A stretch of 64,000 nt of DNA from Candidatus Palauibacter scopulicola (lineage in GTDB: Bacteria; Gemmatimonadota; Gemmatimonadetes; Palauibacterales; Palauibacteraceae): contig NZ_CANPWG010000056.1 of assembly GCF_947581915.1 (NCBI RefSeq), positions 1-64,000 of the forward strand, given 5' to 3'. Within the stretch, counting starts at the first letter, position 1, and every line of letters begins with the position of its first letter. The notes under the pieces are model-generated. The model did not search any database, was not told where the DNA came from, and saw only the letters and a list, made by a program, of their open reading frames with translations. Below are positions 11,322 through 52,068 of this stretch, one piece after another. The translations under genes and the position numbers were made by a program.

Positions 11322-11915
<594 letters not shown>

Positions 11916-11922
11916 AACAGGA

Positions 11923-12279
11923 GTGAACTTGCCGCATCTTACACCTGAGGAAATCGAGCGATTCGCCAGCCGGAGGTCGGCGTCGCCCGCGCACGGGACG
12001 ACGGCCGACCACTTGGCCGCGTGCGCCCTGTGCCGGAAGGAAGTGGAGGCGCTGCGGGACATCATCTCGTTCCTCGAGGGGCTCGACCCGCATCGGCCGT
12101 CCGACGGATTTGCGGAGGGCGTCGCAGGGCGGATCGACCTCGCGGGCGTCGCGCTCGATCACCGGTTGGCGGAGTTGCCCGGGTGGCCCCCCGCGCCTTC
12201 CTTCGCGAGCGACGTCCTGGCGCACGTCGACCTGCCCCACCCGGCGCTCGACCGCGCGCTCTCGAGGCTCCGCACCTAG
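11923..12279 (+). CDS. Zinc-finger anti-sigma factor, truncated by an amber codon
   Basis: 118 residues. An H-x3-C-x2-C zinc anti-sigma (ZAS) motif, DHLAACALCRKE, lies near residues 29-42, as in cytoplasmic anti-sigma domains that hold the adjacent ECF factor. After it come two copies of a roughly 30-residue repeat with the pattern P-x3-F-A-x2-V-x3-(V/I)-D-L. The frame ends at TAG 12277-12279. Translation past it continues into a third repeat copy and a membrane helix in the same frame. The start may be GTG at 11923 or TTG at 11929; AGGAG is better spaced for the TTG. Without the downstream part the protein would lack a membrane anchor. Confidence 0.8.
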   Translation: MNLPHLTPEEIERFASRRSASPAHGTTADHLAACALCRKEVEALRDIISFLEGLDPHRPSDGFAEGVAGRIDLAGVALDHRLAELPGWPPAPSFASDVLAHVDLPHPALDRALSRLRT

Positions 12280-12306
12280 TCTCCCGCCCCGGCGTTCGCT
12301 TCGGCG

Positions 12307-12714
12307 GTGATGGCCCGCGTGCGGCTGCCGGTCCCATGGCCCGAACGCCTCCTGCGCTTCGCGCGGCGGCGGCGGGCGGCGCTGGCCACGGCGGGAGCGG
12401 CCATGCTGGCCGTGTCGGGCGGCGGGGCGGCCTGGCTGTTCGGCGCTCAGGGTCTGGCGCCCGGTCAGCTTCTCGCCGTGGTAGTCGGCGGTGCGCGAAC
12501 CGTTCTTGTCGACGCCATGCTCGCGGCGGGCCGCTTGGCGTACCGTCTCGGACTCGTGGACGCGGGCGGGTCGATCGTCGACCGGATCAGCCCCACCGCC
12601 GCGCTCGGCAGCCTGGCGCTGGCGAGTCTTGTCGGATTCGCCTCGCTCTGGTTCATGGCCAGACTTTTCCGGCAGCCGCTCCCCCAACGCGTTCGCATCG
12701 AGAGGGCCGCATGA
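12307..12714 (+). CDS. Membrane-anchored C-terminal part of the split anti-sigma gene
   Basis: 135 residues if started at GTG 12307. It is in the same reading frame as the anti-sigma gene above, separated only by one TAG. The sequence just after the TAG (12280 onward) reads SPAPAFASAVMARV, a third copy of the anti-sigma repeat, then an Arg-rich segment and a transmembrane helix (ATAGAAMLAVSGGGAAWLFG), followed by a second hydrophobic helix near the end (LGSLALASLVGFASLWFMARL). It is therefore most likely the C-terminal half of one ancestral protein rather than an independent gene. Separate translation from GTG 12307 or ATG 12310 remains possible. Its stop overlaps the next ATG (ATGA). Confidence 0.65.
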   Translation: MMARVRLPVPWPERLLRFARRRRAALATAGAAMLAVSGGGAAWLFGAQGLAPGQLLAVVVGGARTVLVDAMLAAGRLAYRLGLVDAGGSIVDRISPTAALGSLALASLVGFASLWFMARLFRQPLPQRVRIERAA

Positions 12715-14312
12715 CCCGGGCGCTGGCGTTCCTCGCCTGTCTCGCCGTCGCGCTTCCGGTTCACGCGCAGGAGGTCGGCATCGCCGACGCCGCGATCACG
12801 CTCTCCGCCGGCGGCCGGGCCGAGTTGTGGTTCGAACTGGAGGGCGGGACCGAGCATCGACTTCGCTTCGAGGGAGAAGCTGTCGAGGTGGACGGCATCG
12901 GCATCGGATCCTATGCGGAGCGCGGAGGCCTGGAGAGCGCCTGGCGTGAGTTCCTCCGCGAATACGCGGGAGACGATGCCACCTCGGTGCGCGGCGGTCT
13001 GGTGGAATTCCGACGGTTCCTGGAGGAGATGACACCGTCGGAGGAGGCCGCCGACGCGGATGCGGCCCGGGCCCTCGCCGGTCGGATCGACGCGATTCTC
13101 GGACTCGACGCGCCGTCGCCGGTCGGCGCGGAGCCCGCCCTTCCGGCGGGCGAGCCGGCACCGGAGACCTCCGGTCGGCCCGGACCCATGCAGATCGTCC
13201 CCGGCGGACTCGGCTTCGACGTCACCGGCGAACTGGAGCGCCTGCGCGACGCGCTCGGCCGGCTCGGCGACTCGGGCGAATTCACCGAGGATCGGCTGGC
13301 CATGATCGTCCACGGCGACTACGAGGTCCTCGCCGAGGCCACGATCCCGGGAGATGTCGCCATTCTCGACGGCACGCTGAGGCTCGCCGGGGGGGTCGAG
13401 GGCGACGTTCTCGTGCTGGACGGTGCGCTCGTGCTCGACGGCGCCGCGCGCGTACGAGGCGATGTGCTTCAGGTGGGGGGCGAGGTCGACTTCGGTGAAG
13501 GTGCGTCGGGCGTCGAAGGGGAGATCCTCTCCGACATCCGGCTGGCGCCTCCGGCATCCCCCGCGCGGGCGGCGACGGAAACTCCCGCCTTTCGGCGGGT
13601 CGAGTCGTTCGAAGCCCCGATGCGGATGCAGCCCGCACAGCCGGGCCTCGGGTCGCGTCTCGTGCGCAACTTCGGACGGGCCGCCGAAGGCGTGATCGCC
13701 GCCGGTTGCGCGTTCATGGTCCTCGCCGCCTTCGGCCTGCTGCTCGTGTATGTCGGGCGCCGCCGGCTGGAGACCGTCTCGGACACGGTCCGGCTGGAGT
13801 TCGCCCGCTCGTTCGCGATGGGCCTCGCCGGGGAGGTGCTGTTCCTTCCCGTGCTTCTCGTCCTCGCCGTGCTGGTCATCACGTGGCTGGTCATCCCCTT
13901 CTTCCTGCTCGCCGCAGGGCTCGCCGGGCTCTTCGGATATCTCGCGGCGGCGCACGCCGGCGGCGAGATCTTCGCCCGACGCCGCTTCCGCTCCGAATGG
14001 CTGGAGAGACTCCGCCGTTCGAACTCCTACTACTACGTCGTCAGCGGACTCGCGCTTCTGATGCTCCCCTTCGCGGCCGGCGCCGCCCTGTGGGTGTTCG
14101 GCGGCGCGGCGGATTTCGTGCGCGGACTGATCCTCTTCGTGGCCGGCGTCGGCACGTGGGTCGTCGTCACGGCCGGCTTCGGCGGTGTGCTGCTCACGCG
14201 GGCCGGCGGACGGAGCGTCGTCATCGACTGGTCCGCGGACACCGCCACCGGAGAGGGCGCGTCCCCGGGAGCCGGAACCGATCCGCCCTCCGCCCCCGTA
14301 GACGATGCCTGA
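12711..14312 (+). CDS. Exported polymer-forming (bactofilin-like) membrane protein
   Basis: 533 residues. A signal peptide ends at VHAQEVG. About 280 residues follow that include an IPGDVAILDGTLRLAGGVEG-type stretch with repeated GDV/DG units, the right-handed beta pattern of polymer-forming/bactofilin-like domains (about residues 220-280). The C-terminal third has four or five hydrophobic helices (for example LLVLAVLVITWLVIPFFLLAAG) separated by a basic loop. It probably sits in the cytoplasmic membrane with the beta domain outside. The ATG overlaps the upstream stop, placing it in the ECF sigma operon as target or sensor. The function is not established. Confidence 0.75.
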   Translation: MTRALAFLACLAVALPVHAQEVGIADAAITLSAGGRAELWFELEGGTEHRLRFEGEAVEVDGIGIGSYAERGGLESAWREFLREYAGDDATSVRGGLVEFRRFLEEMTPSEEAADADAARALAGRIDAILGLDAPSPVGAEPALPAGEPAPETSGRPGPMQIVPGGLGFDVTGELERLRDALGRLGDSGEFTEDRLAMIVHGDYEVLAEATIPGDVAILDGTLRLAGGVEGDVLVLDGALVLDGAARVRGDVLQVGGEVDFGEGASGVEGEILSDIRLAPPASPARAATETPAFRRVESFEAPMRMQPAQPGLGSRLVRNFGRAAEGVIAAGCAFMVLAAFGLLLVYVGRRRLETVSDTVRLEFARSFAMGLAGEVLFLPVLLVLAVLVITWLVIPFFLLAAGLAGLFGYLAAAHAGGEIFARRRFRSEWLERLRRSNSYYYVVSGLALLMLPFAAGAALWVFGGAADFVRGLILFVAGVGTWVVVTAGFGGVLLTRAGGRSVVIDWSADTATGEGASPGAGTDPPSAPVDDA

Positions 14313-15252
14313 TGCCCGCATGGCCCAGGCCCCCCGAGCCGGGGGGCCTGCCGCGTGGACGCTGCCGGGCCTGCTCGTTTCGCTGGCGCTCAGCGGTGGG
14401 CTGACGCCGGCCCGGGCGCAGGAGTGGCGGGATTTTCGCGCGGCGCGACCGCTCGGCGACCTGGAAGCGCTGGAAGTCGAACTGATGTACGCGGGCGGAC
14501 GGCTCGACGTATCCGCCTCGGAGACACAACTGCTCTACGACGTGCGGCTCCGTTACGACGCCGAACGTTCCCTGCCCCGGCGCGAATGGCGGCGTGCGGG
14601 GCGAACGGGGCACCTTCGGCTGACAACGTCTTCGACTCCGGAGGATGGGCGCGATTCCGACGATGCCACGCGGTTCGGCGACCTGGAGCTCGAACTCGAG
14701 GATCTTCCTCGCAATGCGGACGCGGCCGGGAGGCTGGATCTTTCCCTGAACTCCTCGGTGCCCACGGATCTGCGGCTGGGGATTGGCGCCGGGCGAGCGC
14801 GTCTCAACCTCGGCGGCGCCCACCTTACGGGACTTGAACTCATCACCGGTGCCGGCGACGTGGAGATCGGGTTCGCGCGCGAGAACCGCGCGGCGCTGGA
14901 GGTGCTGTCCATCAAGTCGGGCGCCGCAGCCTTCACGGCCGGGAATCTCGGCAACGCCCGTTTCCGGCGCCTGGAGTTCTACGGTTTCGTAGGCGATGTC
15001 GTTCTGGACTTTTCGGGATCGTGGCGATCGAGCGCCGAGGCCGAGATCAGGATGGGGCTGGGCGAACTCGTGATGCGGGTTCCGGCGCATATCGGCGTCC
15101 GCGTTCGGCGCAGCGGACTCGCCTCGTTGAGCGCGGCGAACTTCGAGAAGGTGGGGGACTACTGGTTGAGTCCCAACTGGGAGACGGCACGCGTGCGGTT
15201 GGAGGTCACGCTGGTCGCCGGACTCGGCTCCGTCACCGTGGAGCACGGCTAG
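14305..15252 (+). CDS. Exported LiaF/toast-rack-like protein
   Basis: 315 residues from ATG 14305, or 310 from ATG 14320; neither has a clear ribosome-binding site, as expected for coupling with the gene it overlaps by eight bases. A signal peptide (LPGLLVSLALSGGLTPARA) ends before QEWRDF. The rest is almost all beta strand with motifs such as VPTDLRLGIGAGRARLNLGGAHLTGLELITGAGDVEI in outline, resembling the repetitive beta fold of LiaF C-terminal/toast-rack or DUF4097 proteins. As last gene of the ECF operon it may be an envelope-stress effector. It converges on mrp; the two stop codons share CTAG. Confidence 0.72.
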   Translation: MPDARMAQAPRAGGPAAWTLPGLLVSLALSGGLTPARAQEWRDFRAARPLGDLEALEVELMYAGGRLDVSASETQLLYDVRLRYDAERSLPRREWRRAGRTGHLRLTTSSTPEDGRDSDDATRFGDLELELEDLPRNADAAGRLDLSLNSSVPTDLRLGIGAGRARLNLGGAHLTGLELITGAGDVEIGFARENRAALEVLSIKSGAAAFTAGNLGNARFRRLEFYGFVGDVVLDFSGSWRSSAEAEIRMGLGELVMRVPAHIGVRVRRSGLASLSAANFEKVGDYWLSPNWETARVRLEVTLVAGLGSVTVEHG

Positions 15253-49311: not shown

Positions 49312-51045
49312 CTACTCCTTGATTTCGATTTCGGCGCTGGACTCGACCGCCGCACCTGTCGGGGAAACGACCTGGAGCGTGAGGCGATACCGGCCCTCGT
49401 CGAGCATGGGGAGGCGGAGTTCGACGGTGCGGCCCTCGGCGGCGGGATTCGTCGCCGTCTCGAGCCAGCGGATGCCCGCCTGTTCCGTGCCGTCGCCGGC
49501 GAGGCCGCTCCATTCGAGTGCCCTGCGCCAGAACCCCTTCCCCTCCCGCGCCAGCGACAGCGTCACCTGGAGCGCGCCGGCGGTGGTCGGGGAGCCGTAC
49601 CACTCCCAATAGACGGCCAGGGTCTCGCCCGCCCGGGCGGTGCGGTGGCCTCGCGCGCGGGCAAGCGCCTCCGAGAGCGTCGCGGGGGAAGCGCCGGCGG
49701 CGTCGAGCAACAGGATGTCGGACAGCTGCGGATGGCTGGCGGCGAGGGGCATCCGCGCGCGTGCGGCGCCGGGTCCCTTCGCGCAGCGCGCCTCGACGCC
49801 GACGAGGGTGGCCGGGACGAACCCGCGGGGCTCCGCGACCGCCAGCGGCCCGTCGCCGCGGCCGGTACGCGAGGCCGTCACGCCGTGGGCGTCGGCGAGG
49901 AAGAGACCCGTCTCGAGATCGCAGGGGGGCACGGAGTCCGGCCACCTGAACGCGGCCACCAAGCGTCGGCGCCCTTCGCGTCGAAAGCTGGCCACCTGGT
50001 GAGGAAGGTCGGCGATTTCGCCGAAAGCCGGTGCCCAGCTCGTGCGCCCCTCCGGCTCATCCAGGTCCCAGAGCGGCCCGTCGTCCGCGGACCCGAGCTG
50101 CAACACGGTGAACCTCTGCGCCCCCGGCAGGCGGTGCGACCAGATGATCTCGTCGGTGCGCGAGCCGACGAACCGGCGGCGCGCCCGCTCCCAGCCGGCG
50201 GGCCAGCCGAAGCGCAGCGTGATCTCGGTGAGGTCGTCGCCCCACCGCATCCCCCAGGGGCTCGCCGCGTCGGCCTGGAGCGCGGCGCGGACGCGGCGGG
50301 CGAGGTGTTCGGAGCGCCGCTCCATCCCCGGAACGAGCCACAGCGGGTCCGAGAGGTGCCAGAACGAGCGCTCCACGGCGCGCCGCGGCGGGCTGCCGCA
50401 GGCGAGGCGCTCGTAGCGGCCGCGCGTCCGGCGGTCGAGCACGGGCCCGAGTTCGGTCCAGCCGCAGCGTTCTTCCTCGGTCATCCGGCCGAGCGCGCGG
50501 TCGAAGGCCGCCTCCGCCTCCGCATAGCGGCCGCTCTCCTGGAGCACGAAACCGGTGAGCCCGGCGCACCACGCACTCTCCGCGCGGCAGGCGTCCAGCA
50601 GCGTGAGCGCCTCCTGCTCGCGACCGGCCTCCAGTCGGTAGGCGACGCGCTGCCCCGCGAGCCACTCGTCGCCGGGGACGATACGGGCGGCGCTGTCGAG
50701 AACCGCGATCAGGACGTGCCGCTCCTCCACGACCTCGGGCTCCTCCGGGACCGGCTTCCAATCGTCGTCGTCCCACCCCTCGACGAGGCAGAAACGCCCG
50801 ATCCCCTCGCCGCATCTCGGGTTGACCAGCGGGCCGCGCGGGAAGTTGCGGCGCCGGACGTGCTCGAATGCGCGCTGAGCGTCGCGCGCCATCTTCAGCG
50901 CCGAGGCGGCATTGGGAGATGCGGGAGGCTCGCGGGATTGGGCCGGGGCCGTGGCGACCGCCGACGCCGAGAGCGCGATGAGCGCGAGCGCCGAGGCAGG
51001 CGCCGCGCGGGAGGCGTGGGTCCGGATGTTCCAGCCCGCACACAT
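49312..51045 (-). CDS. Hypothetical exported protein, 577 residues
   Basis: Unrecognised. A signal peptide (ASALALIALSASAVATAPAQS) precedes a TPR-like helical part (residues 110-190: QEALTLLDACRAES, YAEAEAAFDRALGRM) and a long C-terminal beta-rich part ending AAVESSAEIEIKE. Six or more cysteines suggest disulfides in the periplasm. It may be a surface or periplasmic scaffold. ATG 51045, seven bases after the preceding metallo-hydrolase stop; no good ribosome-binding site, so coupling is likely. Confidence 0.68.
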   Translation of the reverse strand: MCAGWNIRTHASRAAPASALALIALSASAVATAPAQSREPPASPNAASALKMARDAQRAFEHVRRRNFPRGPLVNPRCGEGIGRFCLVEGWDDDDWKPVPEEPEVVEERHVLIAVLDSAARIVPGDEWLAGQRVAYRLEAGREQEALTLLDACRAESAWCAGLTGFVLQESGRYAEAEAAFDRALGRMTEEERCGWTELGPVLDRRTRGRYERLACGSPPRRAVERSFWHLSDPLWLVPGMERRSEHLARRVRAALQADAASPWGMRWGDDLTEITLRFGWPAGWERARRRFVGSRTDEIIWSHRLPGAQRFTVLQLGSADDGPLWDLDEPEGRTSWAPAFGEIADLPHQVASFRREGRRRLVAAFRWPDSVPPCDLETGLFLADAHGVTASRTGRGDGPLAVAEPRGFVPATLVGVEARCAKGPGAARARMPLAASHPQLSDILLLDAAGASPATLSEALARARGHRTARAGETLAVYWEWYGSPTTAGALQVTLSLAREGKGFWRRALEWSGLAGDGTEQAGIRWLETATNPAAEGRTVELRLPMLDEGRYRLTLQVVSPTGAAVESSAEIEIKE

Positions 51046-51051
51046 CTCAGT

Positions 51052-52068
51052 TCAGTACACGTCCAGGTCCCGGCCGTATGCGAGCGGTCCGTCGTAGCCG
51101 GCGGCGCGAATCTCCGCGACCATCTCCTCGGGTGTCGCTCCCCAAGCCAACTGGTGATGCAGGACGAGGATTCCCGGGCGCGCCCGCACGGCGAGTTCCG
51201 CCAGTTCGACGGTCGAGGTGTGGGCCTGGGCGTGATACACCTGCCATTCCGGCGGACGGTCACGGAATGTCGTGGCCGAGTATACCTCGTGCACGAGCAC
51301 GTCGCAGCCCGCGCACATCTCGACGATCGCCTCGGTCGGAGCGGTGTCGCCGGAAAGGACCACCGAGCGCCCCGCAGCGTCGAACCGAAAGCCGTAGGCC
51401 TCCGGCCAGCCCGTATGCACCACCGCGAAGGCGGTCACGCGGACGCGGTCGTCCTCGTAGATGACCCCCGGGTCGATCTCGACCGTCTCCACGCGCCACC
51501 CGTCCGGCGTCGACGGCTGATGGCCGCCGAGCCGGTTCTCGATGTCCGCTTCCCATGCGGCCGTCAGGTGCTCGGCCATCGCCACCGTCCCGCCGGGGCC
51601 GAACAGTTTCAGCGGCGCCTCCCGCTCGGCCACCCAGGGCGTGTGGATCAGGTCCGGCAGCCCCAGGGTGTGGTCGCTGTGCAGGTGAGTGAGGAAAGCG
51701 ATATCCAGCCGCGCCGCCGTGAGGCCCTCGGCGCCGTAGCGGTCGGCCGCCTCCGCCGCGCGGCGTACGAGGCCCACGCCGGCGTCCACGATGTAGGCCC
51801 GCCCATCCACCAGTATTGCGGTGGCGGGGCCCGATGCTTCCGGTTCGGGGTTGGGCGTCCCCGTCCCCAGCAGCACGACGTGCATCCCGGTCGAGAGATC
51901 GACGCCTCCAGCCGGGGCGGACGGCGCCGTCTCGCCGTCGCCGGCGGCTTCGGCGGCACCGGATCCGGCCTCTCCCGAGCCGCACGCCGAAAACGCCAGC
52001 GCGTGGCAGACGGCGAGCAGGCCGGAGGCGGCGTCGGGGCGCTTACGGCTTCGCTTCATGCGGAACAT
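51052..52068 (-). CDS. Metallo-beta-lactamase-fold lipoprotein (RNase Z/arylsulfatase-like)
   Basis: 338 residues. The signal ends in a lipobox-like AFSAC. The fold motifs are VVLLGTGTPNPEPEASGPA, LTHLHSDHTLGLPDL (HxHxDH), VLSGDTAPTEAI and LVLHHQL. The exported form indicates a periplasmic hydrolase, not tRNA RNase Z; the substrate is unknown, with sulfate or phosphate esters possible. ATG 52066-52068, or an internal ATG three codons later. Divergent from the DUF3311 gene with 83 bases between. Confidence 0.78.
   Translation of the reverse strand: MFRMKRSRKRPDAASGLLAVCHALAFSACGSGEAGSGAAEAAGDGETAPSAPAGGVDLSTGMHVVLLGTGTPNPEPEASGPATAILVDGRAYIVDAGVGLVRRAAEAADRYGAEGLTAARLDIAFLTHLHSDHTLGLPDLIHTPWVAEREAPLKLFGPGGTVAMAEHLTAAWEADIENRLGGHQPSTPDGWRVETVEIDPGVIYEDDRVRVTAFAVVHTGWPEAYGFRFDAAGRSVVLSGDTAPTEAIVEMCAGCDVLVHEVYSATTFRDRPPEWQVYHAQAHTSTVELAELAVRARPGILVLHHQLAWGATPEEMVAEIRAAGYDGPLAYGRDLDVY

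Follow-up and report, generated by a model that had tools for sequence, protein, structure and literature searches.

A predicted zinc anti-sigma gene of Candidatus Palauibacter scopulicola is interrupted by an in-frame amber codon that is probably a recent nonsense allele, carried by part or all of the species' population, whose soluble product would likely decouple the neighbouring sigma factor from its envelope signal. The codon (TAG, 12277–12279) was examined in the window, the entire stretch of 64,000 nucleotides analysed in this study, and the sigma gene, the anti-sigma gene and the next gene of the run lie on its forward strand. A prediction made earlier from the letters of this stretch stated that a frame spanning 11923–12279 stops at TAG while the same frame stays open to 12714, and this was confirmed: after the TAG the frame continues until a TGA at 12712–12714. 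The end of the predicted frame stands, but its start at GTG 11923 is probably not the one used. TTG 11929 is the likelier start because an AGGAG sequence lies five bases upstream and because database orthologues such as P0001 begin at the equivalent TTG. The truncated frame (11929–12279) encodes 116 residues from TTG 11929, or 118 if counted from GTG 11923.

Candidatus Palauibacter is described in the source consulted (PMC10469786) as a mostly uncultured group of Gemmatimonadota. The case comes from a lineage known by environmental assemblies, and it is accompanied by 12 intact close relatives and a constrained sigma gene.

The stop would remove the most conserved repeat unit and the membrane part

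The N-terminal region encodes a zinc motif of the form Hx3Cx2C (12010–12033; His30, Cys34 and Cys37), which lies 5' of the TAG and so is kept. A family alignment comprising the window protein and 36 of the 42 proteins found (37 rows) was used to evaluate its conservation; P0013 (short), P0020 and P0036 (which look frame-shifted), and P0039, P0040 and P0042 (pieces) were left out. The histidine is present in 35 rows, the first cysteine in 35 and the second in all 37. Among curated zinc anti-sigma models, zf-HC2 matched one of the 37 rows (not that of the window) and the NCBIfam antisigma model scored 17.8 bits against a cut-off of 100. A profile match to RsiW (E 0.011, residues 22–71 of an 80-residue chain) places the zinc motif in register.

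Downstream of the zinc core are three tandem units of 31 residues each (residues 58–88, 89–119 and 120–150). Units 1 and 2 span 12094–12276, with the TAG serving as the last codon of unit 2 in this register, and unit 3, the membrane-proximal one, spans 12280–12372. The stop therefore falls at the border of units 2 and 3, and the product retains the zinc core plus units 1 and 2. Identities are 12/31 for units 1 and 2 (a count that includes the read-through Trp itself), 15/31 for units 2 and 3, and 7/31 for units 1 and 3; among 20000 shuffles, 0, 0 and 34 scored as high for these respective pairs. These values support the original proposal that the residues past the TAG form a third repeat copy. 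The same proposal held that the TAG sits where a Trp precedes the earlier copy, and indeed Trp88 and the TAG (codon 119) are separated by exactly one repeat unit.

Unit 3 is the most conserved unit. Its motif is present in all 37 family rows, with a mean majority fraction of 0.83 compared with 0.67–0.73 elsewhere. Family members grow in 31-residue steps, with lengths near 200, 230, 261 and 295 residues, and carry one to four units between the zinc core and the membrane part; the shortest have the last unit only. This ladder of unit numbers could be a means of tuning sigma binding across relatives. According to one report (PMC7406223), sigma region 2 is bound by helix four of the class I anti-sigma domain, a helix that the repeat unit resembles. 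When the units of the window protein are compared with the RsiW segment, unit 3 scores 11 and the others 9 and 2, which makes unit 3 the second best of all 248 windows against this segment. The last unit is the best-scoring one in 13 of 34 multi-copy relatives.

The former C-terminal part (12373–12714), which is lost from the product, carries hydrophobic stretches that are predicted to be membrane helices. Hydropathy reaches a maximum of 1.88 (19-residue windows beginning at residues 183 and 228) past the TAG compared with at most 0.72 before it, and helices are predicted with low confidence at 151–175, 180–208 and 224–250. A predicted structure of the read-through protein has a mean pLDDT of 58 and a pTM of 0.32, with residues 31–50 modelled best (block means 81–84). 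These predictions are consistent with the earlier suggestion that the membrane helix lies downstream of the TAG. The window gene thus shares with class I (ZAS) anti-sigma factors the N-terminal Hx3Cx2C motif and the neighbouring ECF sigma gene, while its product lacks the membrane helix of the membrane-bound subgroup.

The next gene of the run (12711–14312) begins with an ATG that overlaps the old anti-sigma stop (ATGA), and early termination at the TAG may also reduce its expression. This gene has a weak bactofilin-like match (E 0.067, below the cut-off). The second gene downstream (14305–15252) has a weak LiaF-like_C match (E 0.0056, likewise below the cut-off), a match that would be in keeping with a group of envelope-stress genes. 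A plasmid search yielded no match.

Close relatives carry tryptophan codons at the position of the stop

Thirty-five genomes of the family were searched with the anti-sigma frame read through the TAG, and matches were obtained in 31. Among the matches listed, an internal stop is present only in the window's own genome and in none of the 30 other genomes with a match. Full-length orthologues with 85–92% identity reside in 12 same-genus genomes, each as one uninterrupted frame that is read through as a single protein to a common end point; these include L011 and L012, which encode an identical protein. None of the 12 ends at the position of the TAG with a separate second gene. Codon 119 is TGG in every one of them and differs from the window TAG by one base, as expected if a single TGG-to-TAG transition gave rise to the stop. 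The remaining four same-genus genomes comprise two with distant forms (54–55%), one with a 38% match and one without a match. The window's genome carries no intact paralogue, its sole other match being 30% identical over 57 residues.

The tryptophan had also been put forward as a repeat-conserved residue. This is true locally (TGG in the 12 close orthologues) but not family-wide: in the rest of the family alignment (36 rows), codon 119 specifies Trp in 18, Val in 7, Arg in 3, Glu in 2, Leu in 2, and Pro, Ala, Ile and Thr in 1 each. Furthermore, the repeat-equivalent Trp88 is replaced by Arg in 3 of the 12 close relatives.

The amber change sits in CCTGG, and Dcm-type CCTGG sites are deamination hotspots. 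The genome encodes a C5-methylase resembling Dcm (a 331-residue piece scores 398 bits against NCBIfam PRK10458, whose cut-off is 710; PDB 3lx6, E 1e-98), and the methylase gene is adjoined by a Vsr gene (PF03852, 96.6 bits). The methylase, located at L099 987–2706 (G000:C55) beside the Vsr endonuclease gene, also has an N-terminal helix-turn-helix. Close homologues, 67–89% identical, are present in 3 of the 16 other same-genus genomes, and none was found in G021, G026 or G019 (a 35% match occurs in G026). In the window alignment, G-to-A changes occur at 4 of 206 CCWGG sites, the amber site included, versus 1 of 465, 4 of 465 and 2 of 572 for near motifs. This rate does not exceed the one at the remaining xxWGx sites (94/5998; Fisher p 0.57), and approximately 244 kb aligned in three genomes yields no signal (CCWGG 7/988 versus 47/7118, p 0.49; fresh segments alone, 3/728 versus 35/5170). 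A Dcm-type hotspot as the cause was rejected on these counts, although a single event of this kind may have occurred.

The lost part shows no clear decay

Pairwise dN/dS values were computed by the Nei-Gojobori method, with gap codons dropped and 1 of 66 pairs dropped for having no synonymous change. After the stop, the median is 0.126 among relatives and 0.151 in the 12 pairs that include the window; before the stop, the corresponding values are 0.347 and 0.444, with overlapping ranges. The part that is lost is thus the more constrained one and exhibits no clear decay, and therefore either the stop is recent or this part is still made. Any relaxation would not seem specific to the lost part, as the window values are raised before the stop too.

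A recent nonsense mutation, one of several options listed in the original prediction, is supported by the tryptophan codon in all close orthologues and by post-stop constraint that is about equal in window pairs and relatives. The same absence of a clear excess of amino-acid changes after the stop would also fit continued translation, and in this respect it counts against a recent nonsense allele.

We infer that translation does terminate at the TAG, that the mutation happened recently and that the shortened product is less effective. Termination at the TAG would yield a soluble product of 116 residues without membrane helices, and the sigma factor would then probably no longer be coupled to its envelope signal. 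Because unit 3, the most conserved of the repeats, would be missing, we lean towards partial release of the sigma factor over permanent inhibition. Such release is plausible, and a soluble inhibitor is also possible since the zinc core and the first two units would stay in place.

A shortened spacer and the prospect of a soluble inhibitor

The gene directly upstream of the anti-sigma frame encodes an ECF sigma factor (11322–11915; 197 codons, TAG end) that is intact and SigW-like, with Sigma70_r2 and r4_2 domains. Its top NCBIfam scores are to SigW models, below their cut-offs. The median pairwise dN/dS for this gene is 0.045 in window pairs and 0.032 among relatives, values that indicate strong constraint on the sigma gene in the window as well.

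Alignments of 13 loci and 4 genomes reveal that the spacer between the two genes is shortened in the window alone, where 45–48 bases kept in all 12 relatives are missing. The remaining spacer (11916–11928) carries the AGGAG ribosome-binding site and leaves 13 bases between the sigma stop and TTG 11929, for which the duplex energy is −8.3 kcal/mol. This deletion may tighten the translational coupling of the anti-sigma gene to the sigma gene. In relatives, the missing piece can form a weakly supported hairpin, with 12 predicted pairs, two-sided changes in 3 of these, and single-sequence z-scores of −0.41 to 1.04 in four relatives.

These features permit an alternative in which truncation and the shortened spacer have together produced a derived soluble anti-sigma factor, a cytoplasmic inhibitor made by closely coupled translation that binds through the zinc core and units 1 and 2. 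In its favour, the stop leaves the zinc motif and the first two repeat units untouched, the deletion brings the ribosome-binding site up against the end of the sigma gene, and a second database record, P0039, shows the same truncation. However, this product has lost the most conserved repeat unit and there is no detectable sign of new constraint, and the truncation occurs in just one of 13 species compared. We consider this alternative unlikely. The related and more specific proposal, that a membrane anti-sigma factor is turning soluble as the amber codon and the 45–48-base deletion convert it to a functional inhibitor in the cytoplasm that carries two repeats resembling helix 4, would likewise seem unlikely.

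The case opens a testable question: does a zinc anti-sigma factor that lacks its membrane half still hold its sigma factor?

A second database record argues against sequencing error

An error in sequencing or assembly, or a mixing of strains, could also have placed a stop in the window's assembly. A single base is changed, the assembly is spread over 79 contigs, and apparent frame breaks are observed in relatives too (2/57 in G021, 0/54 in G026, and 4/63 in G019 plus 5 beyond the contig). Two relatives' database copies of the same gene, P0020 and P0036, also look frame-shifted in part when inspected by eye; these shifts may be additional natural lesions of the gene or faults of assembly. A broken frame here and there is not unusual in assemblies of this kind.

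In contrast, P0039, from a 1892-base contig, has the same extent of 116 residues and the same end as the window product yet differs at one residue (residue 50). A separate record for the C-terminal piece, P0040, comprises 103 residues from the internal ATG 12403, carries one difference (residue 235) and derives from a 9181-base contig. Both contigs are distinct from the window's contig of 74414 bases. A one-off base error is unlikely because the non-identical P0039 shares the end and because the C-terminal piece exists separately. The shared stop is known from protein records; P0039 and P0040 have three cluster members each, which may include the window's own copy because their source field carries the mark used for proteins of the window itself, and the two records may derive from the same population or study as the window. 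Sequencing error, which the original prediction had listed as an option, is disfavoured, and we judge an error of any of these kinds to be very unlikely.

Recoding and a split gene find little support

A full-length protein could still be made if the TAG were read through at a useful rate by a near-cognate tRNA or a suppressor, with the C-terminal part remaining under selection. Post-stop constraint that is about unchanged would agree with this possibility, and amber suppression had been among the options raised originally. The resemblance to stop-codon reassignment or amber suppression is the in-frame TAG in a conserved gene; the differences are more numerous. The recommended search for a suppressor tRNA gave 49 tRNA hits, none of which has the anticodon CTA; the assembly is 95.9% complete, so that a tRNA could be missing. 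Anticodons were assigned mostly by ARAGORN, with four uncalled ones taken from Rfam alignments (CAU twice, GAG and GAU). TAG is a common normal stop: of 47 conserved genes in the window, 17 end with it, including the sigma gene, and for 13 of those it is also the stop in each of the three relatives compared. Moreover, when 57 conserved frames of the window were tested, the anti-sigma gene proved to be the sole one interrupted by a stop. Given these findings, readthrough is highly improbable, and the stop is likely an ordinary loss mutation, with no evidence of recoding or of a new genetic code.

A second frame (49314–51302) flagged in this same survey has a small length difference near its 5' end and 579 codons still open, and was set aside as an end effect. 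Two unusual loci were observed among the tRNA hits. One (L082 96–168; G000:C60:54995–55067) is tRNA-like at 44.6 bits with an odd anticodon arm, is read by ARAGORN as Asp(atc), and is possibly a decayed or unusual tRNA. The other (L081 88–195; G000:C54:11787–11894) is a tRNA-like gene of 108 bases, uncalled by ARAGORN, in which the variable region is very extended and the anticodon loop reads GAG in the Rfam alignment.

A split pair restarting at GTG 12307 or ATG 12310, as had also been suggested, is disfavoured by the unsplit orthologues and the weak ribosome-binding sites of these codons (duplex energies of −1.7 and −4.4 kcal/mol, respectively), whereas ATG 12403 (−7.0 kcal/mol) is moderate, falling between the 10% (−7.9) and 25% (−6.3) quantiles of 600 random NTG codons.

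Comparison with known anti-sigma factors

The intact relatives are reminiscent of RsiW, the zinc anti-sigma factor of SigW in Bacillus subtilis. Both have the Hx3Cx2C motif in register, a SigW-like ECF neighbour, and hydrophobic C-terminal stretches. However, sequence similarity is weak, the membrane part in the family described here is preceded by a tandem array of one to four 31-residue units, and the window copy has no membrane part. The cytoplasmic domain of RsiW is reported to bind SigW tightly (PMC5358783), and by analogy binding of the sigma factor by the truncated product would be possible.

To our knowledge, truncating anti-sigma mutations are known mainly from laboratory and clinical strains. 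Among these, the mucA truncations of Pseudomonas aeruginosa (mucA22, CF149 and mucA25) are likewise lesions, from natural or mutant strains, that leave a shortened anti-sigma factor. As given in the reports consulted, the CF149 MucA protein retains 125+3 of 194 residues and MucA25 has 59+35 (PMC3750012), and the mucA22 product is a protein of 15.8 kDa, with mucoid conversion made possible by this allele (PMC6546240). The CF149 and mucA22 alleles arose by frameshift or by deletion of bases and their phenotype is known, whereas the change described here is a nonsense codon identified in sequence. The likeness to MucA lies in the truncation of an anti-sigma factor and is not a claim of homology. 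By this analogy, natural mucA truncations are a known parallel, and the kind of event that we propose for the window is one already known.
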